Virus record (IMG/VR): IMGVR_UViG_3300048030_000040
Location: 1 to 24,531 of that record
DNA: 24,531 bases
Reading direction: 5' to 3' (one strand)
From: a virus
The notes beneath the pieces are model-generated. The model made no database searches. It was given only the letters and a program-made list of their open reading frames with translations, and was not told where the DNA came from. Shown here piece by piece: positions 6,476 through 18,028 of this stretch; the stretch's first letter is position 1; the number at the start of each line of letters is the position of its first letter. The translations under genes and the position numbers were made by a program.

Positions 6476-6736
6476 ATGGCGACTAAACGTGTGTCGAAAA
6501 AATCTATGCCTTGTAACAAGCCTCGTCGCGCACCAGCGGGGAGCAAGAAGAAGTCTGTTGTAAAGGCTTGCTCGGGTGGCAAGGAAGTGGTTGTTCGATT
6601 TGGAGATCCTAAAATGTCTATCAAGAAGGGAAACCCAAAGAATAAAAAGTCTTATTGCGCACGTTCTGGCGGCATCAAGGGAAAGAGCAACAAACTAACG
6701 GCTAACTACTGGTCGCGTAGAGCGTGGGACTGCTAA
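6476..6736 (+). CDS. Lys/Arg-rich small phage protein, 86 residues
   Basis: RBS AAAGGAG. Strongly basic, with five Cys (residues about 12, 32, 62 and the C-terminal Cys among them). The section G-G-K-E-V-V-V-R-F-G-D-P, then K-K-S-Y-C-A-R-S, and the ending Y-W-S-R-R-A-W-D-C recalls a small basic protein family I remember from marine phages (KEKxIRFG...RHK...YWSxKxW), but I cannot confirm this by search. Function unknown. Possibilities are a nucleic-acid-binding virion component or a small metal-binding protein using its Cys residues. Confidence 0.75.
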   Translation: MATKRVSKKSMPCNKPRRAPAGSKKKSVVKACSGGKEVVVRFGDPKMSIKKGNPKNKKSYCARSGGIKGKSNKLTANYWSRRAWDC

Positions 6737-6737
6737 C

Positions 6738-7013
6738 ATGGGTGATCTAAAGGTTCCAGTAGCACTTGTTTTCGTAATCGTCGCACAAACTGTGGGTGCG
6801 GTATTTTATCTATCGGAGCAAGCCCACAGGATTGAGCATCTTGAAAACTCGTTAGCCAAGATCGACACAGATGTTGACCAATTATTTTTAGACACAGGAG
6901 ATTTGATAACCTTTGCCACCTACACTGAAAACAGATGGGCAGAGGCTTATTCAGACGACATGACATACATTCGTATGTTTGGAACTAAGAAACCCCCAGA
7001 ACAGGAGAACTAA
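6738..7013 (+). CDS. Single-pass membrane protein, holin/spanin-like
   Basis: 91 residues, 1 bp after the previous stop with no strong RBS of its own, so probably coupled. Residues about 5-25 (LKVPVALVFVIVAQTVGAVF) form one hydrophobic helix; the rest is a charged soluble domain with heptad-like spacing (H-L-E-N-S-L-A-K-I). Such a short N-terminally anchored protein could be a pinholin-like, inner-membrane spanin-like or other lysis-timing protein. No endolysin lies next to it, so the lysis role is only a possibility. Confidence 0.65.
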   Translation: MGDLKVPVALVFVIVAQTVGAVFYLSEQAHRIEHLENSLAKIDTDVDQLFLDTGDLITFATYTENRWAEAYSDDMTYIRMFGTKKPPEQEN

Positions 7014-7014
7014 C

Positions 7015-7125
7015 ATGCCAACAGTAGGTAAAAAGAAATTCCCTTACACAAAAGCTGGTAAGGCCGCTGCTAAGAAAGCCGCCAAGAAAACTGGCAAGCC
7101 TATGAAAAAGAAGAAAGGCTACTAA
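7015..7125 (+). CDS. Lysine-rich mini-protein, 36 residues
   Basis: RBS AGGAGAAC precedes the ATG, and the gap to the previous stop is 1 bp. The protein begins MPTVGKKKFPYTKAGKAAAK and ends K-K-K-K-G-Y; about 14 of 36 residues are Lys. The VGKKKFPYT...GKAAAK pattern resembles small proteins I remember from many phages, always of unknown role. It ends at TAATG with the next mini-gene. Probably binds nucleic acid or acts as counter-ion, but that is inference from charge alone. Confidence 0.7.
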   Translation: MPTVGKKKFPYTKAGKAAAKKAAKKTGKPMKKKKGY

Positions 7126-7274
7126 TGAGCCTCTACCGTAATATCAACAAGCGCAAAAAAGCTGGTACGTCGAGGAGTAAGTCTAACTCAACTATTTCGG
7201 ATGCAGCTTATTCAAATATGAAAAAGGGTTTCCCTAAGAAGAAAGGAAAGAAAAGTGGCAAAAGGACCAAGTAG
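7125..7274 (+). CDS. Lys/Arg-rich mini-protein, 49 residues
   Basis: The ATG overlaps the previous TAA by 1 base (TAATG), the usual arrangement in this genome. It begins MSLYRNINKRKKAGTSRSKS, followed by a middle section with S-T-I-S-D-A-A-Y-S-N-M-K-K-G-F, and ends in a Lys/Arg stretch. The opening S-L-Y-x-N-I-N-x-R-K-K-A-G-T-S-R recurs in phage small proteins as I remember them. Function unknown. Confidence 0.7.
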   Translation: MSLYRNINKRKKAGTSRSKSNSTISDAAYSNMKKGFPKKKGKKSGKRTK

Positions 7275-7368
7275 GCAATTACGAAAGGCGGGATGTGGAA
7301 GCATGACCGCTGCAAAGAAAGCACCGATTAAAAAGAAACCAAAATCAGGAATGAAAACTTCAAAATAA
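7255..7368 (+). CDS. Basic mini-protein with GTG start, overlapping its neighbour
   Basis: 37 residues starting at GTG (7255), 20 bp inside the end of the 49-residue gene in another frame, with AAGGA about 7 bp upstream of the GTG. The deduced product begins MAKGPSRQLRKAGCGSMTAA and continues through P-I-K-K-K to a terminal T-S-K. An internal ATG at 7303 would give only 21 residues; the upstream part looks protein-like (R-Q-L-R-K-A-G-C-G-S), which favours the GTG. It stops 2 bp before the next gene. Short, so only moderately certain. Confidence 0.55.
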   Translation: MAKGPSRQLRKAGCGSMTAAKKAPIKKKPKSGMKTSK

Positions 7369-7370
7369 CC

Positions 7371-7649
7371 ATGACAATTAAAACTGACCTTAAAGACCTA
7401 ATCGAACTTTCTGAAAGTAAAGGTTGGGCTAAAATTAACAAGGTCATGCAAGACGAAATACTAACCCTCGCTCTAAGCATGGCCCGATCACCAGATATGA
7501 CGCAGCAACAAATGGACTTCCAGCGTGGGGCAATTTGGGCCGCTGAACAATTACTAAACGTGCCAGAGCGTTTAATTCACAAACTACAAGGCGAACTGGC
7601 ATTAGAAGACGCAACTTATAACTCCGCTATGGCCGAGAAGGAAACTTAA
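7371..7649 (+). CDS. Small helical protein upstream of scaffold, 92 residues
   Basis: Starts 2 bp after the preceding mini-gene and ends 1 bp before the scaffold gene. Mostly helical, with conserved-looking D-F-Q-R-G-A-I-W-A-A-E-Q-L-L at about 50-63. No membrane segment or catalytic motif. Position before scaffold suggests a head-assembly accessory protein, but this is weak inference. Weak RBS, so translation may be coupled. Confidence 0.65.
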   Translation: MTIKTDLKDLIELSESKGWAKINKVMQDEILTLALSMARSPDMTQQQMDFQRGAIWAAEQLLNVPERLIHKLQGELALEDATYNSAMAEKET

Positions 7650-7650
7650 A

Positions 7651-8646
7651 ATGGCAAAAGAAGAAGACCAAATCGCTCGTATTGCAGCAAAGCAATTAAC
7701 AGGCGAGGCTCCAAAAGAGCAAAGCGCACCCGCTGAAAACGCAACCCCACAAGAGCAAGCTGCCCAAGTCGCTTCACCACAGACTGAAGGTGATAAATCG
7801 CAAGAGGCGGCTGTTATGTATAAGGTTAAGATGGGTGACAAAGAGCGAAATCTTACACCTCAACAAATCACAAGCACATTTGAGCGTTACCGAGACTTAA
7901 ACCACAAGCAAGCACAGATGAAACCTGTTATGGACTTAGCTGAAAAGATGATGTCGGCTGGTAATATTGATGGTGGCACGGCTGCAAAGCTTATGGAAGC
8001 TTCTATGCAAGCTTACACAAAGAATGCACAGATGGGTCGAGCAACTCAAAACCCTCAAGCTGGAACTGCACAGCCACAGCAACCATCGCCTAACGCGCAA
8101 CAGCCCAACTTAGATACTGAGTTTAAAAAGTATGAAGACGATAATGCTATTTCCCTTCCCCCTGGATATAGGGAAGCGGCTGCACGTCTAAATTCTATGG
8201 AACAGCGTTTGGGTCAGGGTATGCAAATGCTCAATCAAATGACACAGCGTATGGGCCAACAGGCACAGCAAGGCGTTCAGTCTTCACAGCAAGCCCAAGG
8301 GGATAGAATGGCGGCTGTTGAGCAAAGCATTCGTAACAACCTAGACCGCGCACAACAAGCGGCTGGTTTACCAGACGATGCAGTACAAGACTTCCAAGCC
8401 TATGCTGGTGAACGTGGTTATACCGCTGAAGATTTTGCAGATAGTAATTTGACTATGAAGGTAGTTCAAGACTTTTCAAATCAGCGAAACACACCAGAGT
8501 TTCAAAGGCTAAAGGACATGTCTTCACGTCGCCAAGCCTTTTTACAAACTCAATCAGGTAGCCCAGCTTCCGAGGCGGCAAGGCCAACTGGTGATGATAC
8601 GATGGCGCGGATGGCTGCAAAAGCATTATCCAATAGAAATCCATAA
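7651..8646 (+). CDS. Capsid scaffolding protein
   Basis: 331 residues, RBS AAGGAAA. Gln/Ala/Met-rich, highly charged and predicted helical, with long disordered stretches (Q-rich at about 130-155 and 195-225), which is the typical look of podovirus scaffolds such as T7 gp9. It lies immediately before the major capsid gene, the standard place. A motif near the N-terminus (D6-Q-I-A-R-I-A-A-K-Q-L16) recurs near the C-terminus (D316-T-M-A-R-M-A-A-K-A-L326). In T7-like scaffolds the C-terminal helix contacts the capsid. Function assigned from composition plus location, not from a clear family motif. Confidence 0.8.
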   Translation: MAKEEDQIARIAAKQLTGEAPKEQSAPAENATPQEQAAQVASPQTEGDKSQEAAVMYKVKMGDKERNLTPQQITSTFERYRDLNHKQAQMKPVMDLAEKMMSAGNIDGGTAAKLMEASMQAYTKNAQMGRATQNPQAGTAQPQQPSPNAQQPNLDTEFKKYEDDNAISLPPGYREAAARLNSMEQRLGQGMQMLNQMTQRMGQQAQQGVQSSQQAQGDRMAAVEQSIRNNLDRAQQAAGLPDDAVQDFQAYAGERGYTAEDFADSNLTMKVVQDFSNQRNTPEFQRLKDMSSRRQAFLQTQSGSPASEAARPTGDDTMARMAAKALSNRNP

Positions 8647-8665
8647 ATAAGGGACGACACGCGAC
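8641..8665 (+). promoter_or_regulatory. Candidate phage promoter, copy B (capsid)
   Basis: GGGACGACAC at 8651-8660 preceded by CCATAAATAA, directly after the scaffold stop codon. Shared with copies at 6427, 10019, 15502 and 21690. It would give a separate major capsid transcript closed by the terminator at 9991. The GGG is also the 5' end of the leader stem. As I remember it, the cyanophage Syn5 promoter also centres on ATTGGG followed by AC, a loose resemblance only. Confidence 0.5.
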
Positions 8666-8766
8666 TTAATTTTCCACATATTAGTACATGAACAGACGCT
8701 ACGGCTTCACTTGTTCTATAATGGGAAATTGGAAGGTCGCGTGTTTTCCGCGCCAACTAACGTCCC
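8651..8766 (+). promoter_or_regulatory. Long folded leader upstream of the capsid gene
   Basis: Nested complementary arms lie in this non-coding gap: GGGACG 8651-8656 with CGTCCC 8761-8766; ACACGCGAC 8657-8665 with GTCGCGTGT 8736-8744 (9 perfect pairs); AATTTTCC 8668-8675 with GGGAAATT 8723-8730 (8 pairs, one G-U); and a small inner GAACA 8690-8694 with TGTTC 8712-8716. The first two arms are contiguous on the 5' side. The capsid RBS and ATG (8802) lie outside, 35 bases downstream. It may stabilise the capsid mRNA or be a processing site. Confidence 0.6.
8717..8722 (+). promoter_or_regulatory. TATAAT box, possible host sigma-70 -10 element
   Basis: A perfect TATAAT lies in the capsid leader. 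A good TTGACA-like -35 is not seen at 16-18 bp upstream and there is no extended -10 TGn directly before it. It may be part of the leader fold rather than a promoter. Confidence 0.2.
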
Positions 8767-8801
8767 CCGAAAATTTTAACCTATCGAAAGGAGACTAGCA
8801 G

Positions 8802-9968
8802 ATGGCTGGTATTCAAGGACTTCGGGGTACAGGTCAGTTTAATACAGACTTTCGCCCGAAAAACTACCGCGAGCTTTTTACGCTCTTGGAACCAAACGGC
8901 AATGCGCCTTTGAACGGACTGTTAGCAATGACAGGTTCAGAGGCAACAGACGATCCTGAGTTCAAGAACTTTAGGGACGAATTGCCTGACAGAAAGCTGA
9001 CAGTAAACGGGGCAGTAGCTTCGACTTCTACTACAGCTATTACAGTAGACGCTGGTAACGACAACTTGTTTGCGGTTGCTGGTTCTATTGTTGTAAACGC
9101 AACCACAGGCGAGGTAATGCGTTGTACAGCGGATGCGACAGCAACAGCTTTAACTGTTGAAAGAAACATCGGCGGTACATCACACCAGATTGCTGATAAT
9201 GCAGAATTGTTCATAGCTGGTACAGCATATGAAGAAGGCGCGGCATCACCAACAGGAGTGAGTTTTGACGCGACGGTAGCTGAAAATTTTACACAAATTT
9301 TTCGTACCGCATTTACCGTGACCGAAACTTTGAGAGCCACAAATCTAAGGACTGGCGACAAAGAAGACGAAATGGCAACCAAAGCCTTAAAAATGCACAT
9401 GATGGATATTGAGAGAGCAATGTTCTTCGGTAAGAAGAACGAAAGCAACGGCTCAACATCACAGCCACGCCGTTTCACTGGCGGGTTGATCAATACTTTG
9501 TCAAACGTGATTGACCGTTCAACGGCTTCAAGCACAATGACAGAGGATCAATTTGATCGTGCATTGATCGAAGACATTTTTGCATTCGGTTCCAAGCAAA
9601 AAATTATGTTCTGCGGAGCAAAAGTTGCTGGACACTTGCAGAAATTCGGTAAGGACAGATGGACTCCACATGTGATCGAAGACACCTATGGCGTAAGCTT
9701 GACAGGTTATGAGACATTTGCGGGTACATTAGCCGTACATCTACACCCACAATTCCGTATGGTTCCTGGTATGGAAAATGCGGCGGTCATTATTGACTTC
9801 CCGTATATGAAGTACCGCTATATGGAAGGGCGTGATACGCAGCTTCTACGTGATAGACAAGCTGCCGATCTTGATGCAGTTAAGCACGAGTACCTAACGG
9901 AATGCGGCTTAGAATTGCTTCAAGACAAGGTTCACACCTACATCAAAAATTGGGATTTGGTTGCATAA
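8802..9968 (+). CDS. Major capsid protein (HK97 fold, SU10-like)
   Basis: 388 residues with a strong RBS (GAAAGGAGA). Residues about 65-150 form a beta-rich insertion with the T-T-A-I-T-V-D and L-T-V-E-R-N-I-G-G-T pattern seen in many phage capsid proteins. About 160-240 has F-T-Q-I-F-R-T-A-F-T-V-T-E-T then M-D-I-E-R-A-M-F-F-G and R-R-F-T-G-G-L, and about 300-385 has a P-domain-like end; together these resemble the SU10 major capsid family. It stands after scaffold, has its own promoter-like motif and leader, and is followed by a terminator, as expected for the most abundant virion protein. Confidence 0.9.
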   Translation: MAGIQGLRGTGQFNTDFRPKNYRELFTLLEPNGNAPLNGLLAMTGSEATDDPEFKNFRDELPDRKLTVNGAVASTSTTAITVDAGNDNLFAVAGSIVVNATTGEVMRCTADATATALTVERNIGGTSHQIADNAELFIAGTAYEEGAASPTGVSFDATVAENFTQIFRTAFTVTETLRATNLRTGDKEDEMATKALKMHMMDIERAMFFGKKNESNGSTSQPRRFTGGLINTLSNVIDRSTASSTMTEDQFDRALIEDIFAFGSKQKIMFCGAKVAGHLQKFGKDRWTPHVIEDTYGVSLTGYETFAGTLAVHLHPQFRMVPGMENAAVIIDFPYMKYRYMEGRDTQLLRDRQAADLDAVKHEYLTECGLELLQDKVHTYIKNWDLVA

Positions 9969-9990: not shown

Positions 9991-10017
9991 AGGGCGGCTT
10001 CGGTCGCCCTTTCTTAT
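9991..10017 (+). terminator. Intrinsic terminator after the capsid gene
   Basis: AGGGCGGC, loop TTCG, GTCGCCCT (9991-10010) form an 8-bp stem with one G-U pair and a UUCG tetraloop, followed by TTTCTTATT. It lies 22 bp after the capsid stop, at the same place as the T7 terminator after gene 10, and is followed immediately by promoter motif copy C. Confidence 0.9.
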
Positions 10018-10027
10018 TGGGACGACT
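10010..10027 (+). promoter_or_regulatory. Candidate phage promoter, copy C
   Basis: GGGACGAC at 10019-10026, preceded by TTTCTTATT and directly abutting the capsid terminator. It would restart transcription for the genes from 10081 onwards. Unlike the other copies, no obvious 5' hairpin follows. The rest of the gap (10028-10080) is AT-rich and holds the RBS TAGGAG of the next gene. Confidence 0.5.
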
Positions 10028-10080
10028 AAGGGGTGAAAAATCAGCATAAATAATAGGTAGGTAAATTTAGGAGTAACCTT

Positions 10081-15825: not shown

Positions 15826-16245
15826 GTGGACAAATTGCGCGACGCAATCGAGATTTGGGCAAGTTGCCCAAAATACAGAGAGTACATAAGTAAGTTCCTT
15901 TGGTATCGGTTAGTTGCAGCTTACGATAACGATAAACTTCACGTTTACTATGACGGTGATAAACCTATTGGGTTTATTACTTATTGCTTCTTAACTGATA
16001 AAGAGGCTGAAAATTTAGAATGGTATGGGCCAGAAGCATTTAAACGAGAAAGTGGCGATCAGCTCTGGTTTATTGACATGGTAGCCAACGGTGGTCGTGC
16101 CGACGTTCTAAGAATTTGTAGAGATATGCGGAGCAAAATTAAAGACAAGTATCCGCTTGTAGAAACCGTTCTAAGTTTTAGACACGCAAGCCGCGTAGGA
16201 TCGTGGCCTAATAAGGGAAAATGGCATGAAACACACGCTTCTTGA
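15826..16245 (+). CDS. HlyC-like (toxin-activating acyltransferase) fold protein in the T7 gp13 position
   Basis: 139 residues, GTG start 1 bp after the previous stop, with GGATGG upstream. I-W-A-S-C-P-K-Y-R-E-Y (10-20) aligns with W-A-S-S-P-L-H-R-N-W of E. coli HlyC; K-P-I-G-F-I-T-Y-C-F-L (46-56) with its P-V-A-Y-C-S-W-A-N-L strand; and S-G-D-Q-L-W-F-I-D84 with S-G-D-R-K-W-F-I-D92. The catalytic Asp is kept (D84), but the catalytic His is Tyr (Y17). T7 gp13 (138 residues, also an acetyltransferase-like protein as I remember) occupies the same relative place. Possible role: a virion assembly protein or an inactive/altered acyltransferase. Confidence 0.7.
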   Translation: MDKLRDAIEIWASCPKYREYISKFLWYRLVAAYDNDKLHVYYDGDKPIGFITYCFLTDKEAENLEWYGPEAFKRESGDQLWFIDMVANGGRADVLRICRDMRSKIKDKYPLVETVLSFRHASRVGSWPNKGKWHETHAS

Positions 16246-18028
16246 TTTACTAGGATTAAACCCTCTTAACCCCAAAATTGTATTTGGTGGCGCATCTCAA
16301 GGTGGCGGCGGCTCCTCTAGTAGTGGCGGTGGTAGCAGTAGCAGTAGTAGCGCACTAGACAACAATCCAAATGCCGATGATGGCGGGGGAATGGAAACTA
16401 TTCTTAATGATGGTCGATCCCCAATAGAAAGTGCAGCCTCTACAACTAATGCGGGTAGTGGGCAAGATAACAACCCCAATGCGGGAGATGGCGGCGGCGA
16501 TAAGGGTGGTCAAGATAATAACCCGAATGCGGGTGACGGTGGCGGCTCTGCAAGTTCGGTTGGCGGTTCTGGTCAAGACAATAATCCAAACGTCGATGGG
16601 GATTTAAGTGTTGTTTTAGACAACAACCCCAATGTTGATGGACCGCTTGGAGTTACCACTACTGGTCAAGACAATAACCCTAATGTTGGCAGTAATAGCA
16701 GTTCGATAGGGTCGTCAGGTTACACGAGTTTAGATGCGATGGCGGCTAATATGGGGAGTGGTAGCGGTCAAGATAATAACCCTAATGCTGGCGGTGGTAA
16801 TACAGTACAAGCCGTAACAGGCTCATCAGGTTATCCGAGTGCAGATGCGACTGCCGCTGCTGCCTCTAGTGGACAAGATAATAACCCCAACGCTGGTGAT
16901 GGCGGCGGTTCTGTTGTTGTAGGAGACAACAATCCCAACGCTGGTGATGGTGGTGGTGCAGTGATGAATAACACTGCCCAAGACAATAACCCTAATGCCG
17001 AAGGTGGTGGGTACGCTTCAAACGTAGATCAAATACTTGTTGAAGAATACGGCTGGACCCTTGGGCCTGATGGTAAGGCAAAAGCTAATATGACGGGCGC
17101 GGTTTCGGGAACAGATTATGGTGATCCATCACAAGTACCCCCTAATGTTGGTGGCGGCGGTCAAGACAATAACCCTAACCAGAATGGTCCCGCAGTTATC
17201 CCGACAGGTGGTCCTGGTACTTTTCCAGTACCCACAAATGTTGGCGGCGGCGGTCAGGAAAATAATCCTAACGAGGGTGATGGCGGTGGTTTAGCTAGTA
17301 TTATCAGTGAAATTGCTGGCGGTGGCGGTACTGGATCTGGCGGCGGCGGCGGTGGCGGCGGCGGCGGCGGTGGCGGCGGTGGCGGCGGCGGCACTGGAAC
17401 AGGAACAGGAACAGGAACAGGCACGGGTACTGGCACGGGTACTGGAACTGGAACTGGAACTGGTGAAGGTGAAGGCACTGGCACTGGCACTGGTGAAGGT
17501 ACTGGTGAAGGTACGGGAGAAGGAACTGGCGAAGGTACTGGCGAAGGAACTGGTGAGGGAACTGGTGAGGGAACTGGTGAGTCACAAGTTAATAACGGTA
17601 GTGCTAATGATCAATTTGCCGATCAAAACAATGACGGTACGATTACTGCGTTAGAAGCTGAGATTGCAAACCTTCGTCAACAGCTTGCATTACTTACTAA
17701 TGGTTCTACTCAAGACACAGACGGTATGACGCGAGAAGAAATTTTGCAGTTAATAGCCGAGTCCATGCGTAATCAAAACTCTGCAAACTACAACCCTCTA
17801 GCTTATATGAACGCTTTTGGTTTCGCAGCGCAGCCAAATTATTTTGGACAGCCAATCCCAACATTCATGTCTCAAGATGGTGTTTATGAAAGACGGGCGG
17901 TCAGAGACAGAGACACAGGCGAGGTGCGCTATGTTAATGTTCCTATTGGCAACGCCTCTCTTACTGGCACGGGCGGTTTCCAACGCCGTAGACGTGCTGG
18001 CTTTGGGGGAACATTCGATACATTTTAG
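16226..18028 (+). CDS. DNNPN-repeat, Gly-rich virion-associated protein
   Basis: 600 residues; starts inside the end of the preceding gene (20 bp overlap, RBS AAGGG). N-terminal Gly/Ser stretch, then 12 copies of (Q/L)(D/E)NNPN, often followed by AGDGGG (residues 45-355). Next come about 18 consecutive Gly, a GT dipeptide tract and a GEGT tract (to about 452). Residues D466-E477 (DQNNDGTITALE) form an EF-hand-type loop leading into a short coiled coil (LEAEIANLRQQLALL). The C-terminal 100 residues are compact, ending in F-Q-R-R-R-R-A-G-F-G-G. Function unknown; it lies at the head of the ejection protein group. Confidence 0.8.
   Translation: MKHTLLDLLGLNPLNPKIVFGGASQGGGGSSSSGGGSSSSSSALDNNPNADDGGGMETILNDGRSPIESAASTTNAGSGQDNNPNAGDGGGDKGGQDNNPNAGDGGGSASSVGGSGQDNNPNVDGDLSVVLDNNPNVDGPLGVTTTGQDNNPNVGSNSSSIGSSGYTSLDAMAANMGSGSGQDNNPNAGGGNTVQAVTGSSGYPSADATAAAASSGQDNNPNAGDGGGSVVVGDNNPNAGDGGGAVMNNTAQDNNPNAEGGGYASNVDQILVEEYGWTLGPDGKAKANMTGAVSGTDYGDPSQVPPNVGGGGQDNNPNQNGPAVIPTGGPGTFPVPTNVGGGGQENNPNEGDGGGLASIISEIAGGGGTGSGGGGGGGGGGGGGGGGGGTGTGTGTGTGTGTGTGTGTGTGTGEGEGTGTGTGEGTGEGTGEGTGEGTGEGTGEGTGEGTGESQVNNGSANDQFADQNNDGTITALEAEIANLRQQLALLTNGSTQDTDGMTREEILQLIAESMRNQNSANYNPLAYMNAFGFAAQPNYFGQPIPTFMSQDGVYERRAVRDRDTGEVRYVNVPIGNASLTGTGGFQRRRRAGFGGTFDTF
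16358..17290 (+). repeat. 12-copy DNNPN coding repeat
   Basis: Eleven DNNPN and one ENNPN copy, irregularly spaced from about 11 to over 60 residues, mostly preceded by G-Q and followed by AGDGGG. Synonymous codons vary between copies (GACAACAATCC, GATAATAACCC), so the protein motif rather than the DNA appears conserved. A second repeat, S-S-G-Y-(T/P)-S-(L/A)-D-A, occurs twice within it. Confidence 0.9.
17318..17579 (+). repeat. Simple-sequence tracts: GGC/GGT, then GGNACN and GGNGAR hexamers
   Basis: A nearly pure GGC/GGT run to 17391 is followed by hexanucleotide units encoding Gly-Thr (17392 to about 17465) and then Gly-Glu-Gly-Thr. Units of 3 and 6 bp keep the frame when copy number changes. 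Such tracts are prone to slippage, so length may vary between isolates and may be mis-assembled. Confidence 0.9.

Follow-up and report, generated by a model that had tools for sequence, protein, structure and literature searches.

A hairpin shared by the presumed scaffold and capsid genes of a marine phage family is a candidate RNA operator

The window analyzed here, meaning the whole 24.5-kb virus record, carries a 155-nt gap (8647–8801) between a presumed scaffold gene and the gene for a major capsid protein, as the preliminary description of this DNA had reported. The scaffold assignment is presumed from position and composition, and the protein had no match in Pfam or PHROG. The nearest cultured relative is Roseobacter phage CRP-810 (capsid protein, 71% amino acid identity over 99%), and the window shares the gene order of the CRP-810-type family (presumed scaffold, capsid, then tail genes), which places it in that family. 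The marine phage family of which CRP-810 is the type member is new, temperate, and globally distributed (PMC11288001), and the searched portion of that paper's text contained no promoter or RNA element. We collected about 250 loci with related capsid genes and, because many of these are overlapping copies of the same contigs, ran the tests on distinct sequences. A second viral scan, with alignment A1, gave the same best 80 contigs as before. Elsewhere in the window, several small lysine-rich ORFs that could encode nucleic acid–binding proteins lie just 5′ of the scaffold operon (6476–7370), and an ORF at 16226–18028 is rich in DNNPNAGDGGG-like repeats and also has a long run of glycine and threonine.

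Table 1. Features of the scaffold–capsid region, in window coordinates.
Feature	Position	Strand	Basis or remark
Operator-like hairpin CTC-C-GC(TATG)GC-C-GAG	7622–7637	+	Directly abuts scaffold Shine-Dalgarno AAGGA (7638–7642)
Presumed scaffold gene, 331 aa	7651–8646	+	Directly 5′ of capsid gene; composition
−35-like element GGGACGAC (+1 of the preliminary description; includes 5′ half of arm 1)	8651–8658	+	Strand bias; fixed distance to −10
5′ half of arm 2, ACACGCGAC	8657–8665	+	Pairs with 8736–8744; within promoter spacer; leader duplex beats shuffles
−10 hexamer CATATT	8677–8682	+	Logo of 94 leaders (position 27 A 0.83, position 31 T 0.85)
P1 hairpin, at predicted 5′ end of capsid mRNA	8690–8716	+	Same fold in most relatives; covariation
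P1 apex, operator-like, GA-C-GC(TACG)GC-T-TC	8695–8708	+	Mismatch conservation; covariation
P2/P3 domain: GGGA (8723–8726)/TCCC (8763–8766), TTGG/CTAA, P3 (8735–8754)	8723–8766	+	Fold from 8690
Weak hairpin CCT/AGG over Shine-Dalgarno AGGAG (8789–8793)	8780–8793	+	Predicted fold; Shine-Dalgarno itself constrained
Major capsid protein gene, SU10 type	8802–9968	+	Pfam PF17236, E 3e-38; PHROG 1328
Intrinsic-terminator-like hairpin (9991–10010), next GGGACGAC (10019), CATAAATA	9991–10050	+	End of capsid unit

The preliminary description had drawn attention to a long fold in this gap, and all of its parts are found in the sequence: arm 1 of six pairs (GGGACG, 8651–8656, with CGTCCC, 8761–8766), arm 2 of nine (ACACGCGAC with GTCGCGTGT, 8736–8744), arm 3 of eight (AATTTTCC, 8668–8675, with GGGAAATT, 8723–8730), and an inner 5-bp hairpin (GAACA/TGTTC, within 8690–8716). 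The fold also withstood comparison with dinucleotide shuffles: the plus strand of 8651–8769 gave −38.6 kcal/mol versus −25.1 ± 3.05 for the shuffles (z −4.4), and the minus strand reached only z −1.6. The expectation that relatives would conserve the pairing held for arm 2, in one clade only, and failed for arms 1 and 3. Pairing of arm 2 is kept in 9/9 clade-A sequences, one end pair excepted, with double (compensatory) changes. In the same nine sequences, the 5′ side of arm 1 is invariant and there are zero double changes, and arm 3 is intact only in the window and its two nearest relatives, being broken in most of the nine. The other clades have the promoter and leader described below and lack these arms.

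The GGG at 8651 had been proposed as the transcription start, which is very probably wrong because GGGACGA(C) recurs as a −35-like element at a fixed distance from a TATAWT −10 element. In 533 kb of related loci, redundant contigs included, there are 204 copies of GGGACGA on the plus strand versus nine on the minus strand. A logo of 94 distinct capsid leaders displays GGACGA, a weakly conserved spacer, TATAWT, and a pyrimidine–purine step at the expected start; these leaders were picked by GGACGA, whose conservation is therefore partly by construction, but that of the −10 element and the start is not. Across the 94, the distance from GGACGA to the −10-like hexamer is the same, with the start step 38 nt downstream, and beyond the capsid leaders GGGACGA again has an AT-rich motif resembling CATAAATA at a constant spacing downstream. 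The capsid mRNA of the window is thus predicted, from sequence, to start at ∼8689–8690 from a sigma-70-type promoter. We found no conserved block directly 5′ of GGGACGA, and no RNA polymerase gene is annotated in CRP-810.

GGGACGA occurs at or near gene boundaries elsewhere in the window (6427, 10019, 15502, and 21690), where it probably marks promoters of other late units; the copy at 10019 comes directly after the capsid terminator. A candidate activator of these promoters is CRP-810 gp13 (L083:7867–8331), a LuxR/GerE-type helix-turn-helix protein (Pfam E 3.5e-11) encoded beside the integrase. At several loci (L028, L032–L035, L038, and L040), the −35 element lies between the halves of an inverted repeat, for example TGCACGAGGGA/TCCCTCGTGCA.

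A start at ∼8689–8690 would leave the 5′ halves of all three arms upstream of the transcript, inside the promoter, so that the long three-arm fold, if the promoter prediction is right, could form only in read-through RNA of the scaffold operon, where arm 2 may have a role. Promoter-region segments complementary to the leader (P ≤ 0.05) were found for 13/51 leaders, versus 2–3 expected. All 13 come from clades A, C, and E, with pairing targets that differ from clade to clade, and in these clades ≤13 nt separate the stop codon from the −35 element and no terminator intervenes. Most members of the CRP-810 group, and clade I (L050 and L054), have a terminator-like hairpin at this place and no promoter-embedded arms; some clades have neither. 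Plausibly, the promoter-embedded arms refold the capsid leader when transcription of the scaffold operon continues into the capsid unit.

The idea of a new structured RNA before the capsid gene survived, but the RNA that is conserved is a different one, starting at ∼8690 rather than at 8651. This deeply conserved structure consists of P1, the P2/P3 domain, and a weak hairpin over the Shine-Dalgarno sequence, and helices equivalent to P2/P3 covary in the CRP-810 group. A structure written for 17 sequences of that group gave 86% paired cells and a covariation of 0.415 versus 0.187 when shuffled and ≤0.11 when the pairing partners were slid; the shuffle controls ignore relatedness, whereas sliding preserves it and the signal nevertheless collapses. 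A covariance model built from this structure recognized leaders of its own group strongly and that of the window weakly (21 bits, E 0.02 and 0.0095); the two groups have a common motif and architecture but are not interchangeable. Because the helices shift register between clades, RNAalifold on a single MAFFT alignment of all leaders recovered no more than the tetraloop stem and a portion of P3, and group-wise alignment with a covariance model succeeded where the all-leader alignment failed. At gathering threshold, no Rfam 15 family matched the window, and within 8600–8830 none matched up to E 5. Taken alone, the folding energy of the leader from its predicted start is unremarkable, and a lesson of this locus is that the conserved fold of a gap may differ from its most stable fold.

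Some further pairings were noted in the leaders. In some clades, though not in the window, GGNAC could form a pseudoknot with a small hairpin (UUGCG-UNCCU-CGCAA) through the loop of the latter, and a possible tetraloop contact with a 3′ CGUA motif was rejected as inconsistent. In the capsid leaders of L022, L024, L039, and L043–L048, the loop CUACGGC can pair with an upstream GCCGUA to form a more stable alternative hairpin, the 5′ strand of which lies partly upstream of the predicted start.

Unasked, the covariance model also gave weak but recurrent matches at a second syntenic site 1.2 to 1.4 kb upstream, directly before the scaffold start. The element at this site is the P1 apex again: a stem, a C·Y mismatch, GC/GC, and usually a YNHG tetraloop. 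Among 70 distinct scaffold starts, taken without requiring a stem, GC-YNHG-GC is present at 63, and the mismatch is C·C or C·U in 63/63. The flanking stem of the scaffold site covaries (0.521 versus 0.127 shuffled; slid controls ≤0.205), as does the capsid-site hairpin (0.525 versus 0.149 shuffled), where a pyrimidine–pyrimidine mismatch is found in 79/81 distinct leaders; the capsid-site rows were chosen with the stem score counted, which biases their paired percentage upward, and the scaffold rows were not. A Shine-Dalgarno sequence follows the scaffold hairpin by 0–3 nt in 61/67 sites, and in L166 and L167 the scaffold-gene hairpin occurs in tandem. Tetraloops are identical at the two sites in 19/57 genomes, versus 10.5 expected (0/5000 permutations as high; kinship uncorrected); both loops are GNRA in L064 and L066, and both are UGCG in L216. 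We also observed that, at the scaffold site, C·U goes mostly with UACG/UUCG loops and C·C with CAAG/UAAG/UAUG. The divergent capsid leaders of L192, L194, L195, L215, L223, and L165 keep C·C and GC/GC with the tetraloops UCGC, UAAC, UUAC, ACAA, ACCA, and AAUA.

The hairpin is restricted to these two genes in the complete genome of CRP-810, where mismatch-bearing, gene-leading copies occur only at gp46 (presumed scaffold) and gp45 (capsid), the remaining matches to the descriptor being inside genes or without the mismatch. Six distant SU10-type phages had no recognizable hairpin at their scaffold or capsid genes. When 2.9 million viral contigs were scanned with one version of the scaffold hairpin plus Shine-Dalgarno sequence, 103 stretches matched. 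Among the 80 of these that were listed, 27 sit 0.7 to 2.2 kb before a related capsid gene, and four more (L269, L287, L305, and L314) stand before a scaffold-like start with the capsid gene slightly more distant or beyond the collected stretch. One further match, L255, lies before an unrelated ORF, and almost all of the others either have short stems or lack a plausible start. Thus, among the listed matches with a long stem and a start codon, the genes are scaffold genes with one exception. The literature we searched held no description of the shared hairpin or of the leader element.

The best explanation, which we consider somewhat probable, is that the two hairpin copies are operators for one trans-acting factor that would coordinate scaffold and capsid expression. 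This reading draws on what the comparison of relatives established, namely the structures and their covariation, their placement, the gene restriction, and the loop concordance. The chief rival dispenses with a binding factor: P1 would stabilize an abundant late mRNA, as 5′-terminal stem-loops (for example, in ompA and T7 gene 10) do, and the scaffold hairpin would protect or present the Shine-Dalgarno region. Almost all relatives do have P1 at the predicted 5′ end; a C-G pair would be stabler, though, and yet the Y·Y mismatch is kept (63/63 and 79/81 sites), and stability by itself would not account for linked loop classes at two genes. We consider this rival unlikely, if still a serious contender, and the conserved mismatch is the best argument for recognition over mere stability.

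The remaining explanations are far less probable. That transcription starts at GGG 8651, with the whole three-arm fold as a leader that protects the mRNA or guides RNase III, would suit the z-score of −4.4 and the compensated arm 2 of clade A, but GGACGA acts like a −35 element, a −10 and a start following it at set distances, conservation is lacking for arms 1 and 3, and the arms are absent from most other clades, which leaves this model improbable. We give slightly less credence to an antitermination RNA of the HK022 put kind, which would modify RNA polymerase. Two hairpins immediately 3′ of a promoter would fit such an RNA; a terminator-like hairpin after the capsid gene in the window and many relatives, and a scaffold-gene hairpin standing alone at a ribosome-binding site, speak against it. 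Least probable of all is a small-molecule riboswitch governing capsid translation: the layout, in which a conserved domain of several helices precedes a weak hairpin over the Shine-Dalgarno sequence, would suit one, but loops and junctions vary widely among clades, and the scaffold copy occurs without the rest of the domain.

Translational operator hairpins at phage ribosome-binding sites are known from the MS2/R17 coat protein and T4 gp43. Like them, the hairpin described here is small, has definite unpaired and loop positions, and is located at a ribosome-binding site, although at the scaffold gene only and not at the capsid gene; where the MS2/R17 operator has a bulged A and an ANYA loop, ours has a C·Y mismatch and, in most copies, a YNHG loop, and, unlike the MS2/R17 and T4 gp43 operators, it is common to two genes of a DNA phage and is an operator only putatively. 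In P22, the scaffold protein is autoregulated after transcription, and our proposal would likewise couple control of scaffold synthesis to capsid assembly; we know of no RNA operator of such a kind in P22. With the T7 gene 10 leader and the ompA stem-loop the capsid leader shares a stem-loop at the 5′ end of an abundant mRNA, but here the hairpin apex is constrained in detail and common to a second gene, and the promoter has a sigma-70-like −10 element in place of the phage-polymerase promoter of T7 gene 10. Domain d of the enterovirus oriL, to which 3C/3CD binds, carries YNHG-consensus tetraloops in which the loop fold, rather than the sequence, is kept (PMC5633025). Most loops at both of our sites are YNHG tetraloops as well, but domain d is a replication element in the cloverleaf of an RNA virus, whereas ours lies in mRNA leaders of a DNA phage with no cloverleaf, and the resemblance is surely convergent. 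Structured leader RNAs have been found by comparative genomics in marine phages before, such as manA, wcaG, and PhotoRC-II, which are linked to metabolic or photosynthesis genes (PMC2864571); the present leader, found in the same way in marine phages, belongs to the capsid gene and matches no Rfam family.

Under the two-operator explanation, the capsid mRNA would start at ∼8690 from a GGGACGA-N19-TATAWT promoter and carry a structured 5′ UTR, and a trans-acting factor would bind both hairpins and so couple two shell-building genes. A phage gene probably encodes the factor, given that the element tracks the phage family through different hosts. Candidates would be the scaffold or capsid protein, or one of the small basic (lysine-rich) proteins encoded just upstream; the presumed scaffold protein is not an obvious RNA-binding protein because its own ends are not strongly basic. 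At the scaffold site, the factor would compete with the ribosome. The capsid hairpin lies 80 to 100 nt from the Shine-Dalgarno sequence, so a simple block of the ribosome is inapplicable and the route must differ; there the factor might act at a distance, via the leader fold. In clades without an intergenic terminator, promoter-embedded arms such as arm 2 could refold the leader in read-through RNA and thereby separate the two units. A more specific version, which we put forward tentatively and hold to be somewhat unlikely, is a two-gene RNA regulon in which one phage protein, possibly the scaffold protein, reads the hairpin on both mRNAs and sets their ratio, with the promoter-embedded arms switching the capsid operator off in read-through.

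The leader and its hairpin represent a candidate RNA family that Rfam lacks. The way in which tailed DNA phages balance scaffold against capsid protein is poorly understood, and a defined RNA operator common to the two genes would make this question directly testable. If true, the two-operator explanation would add a viral RNA–protein recognition pair in an abundant and little-known family of marine phages.
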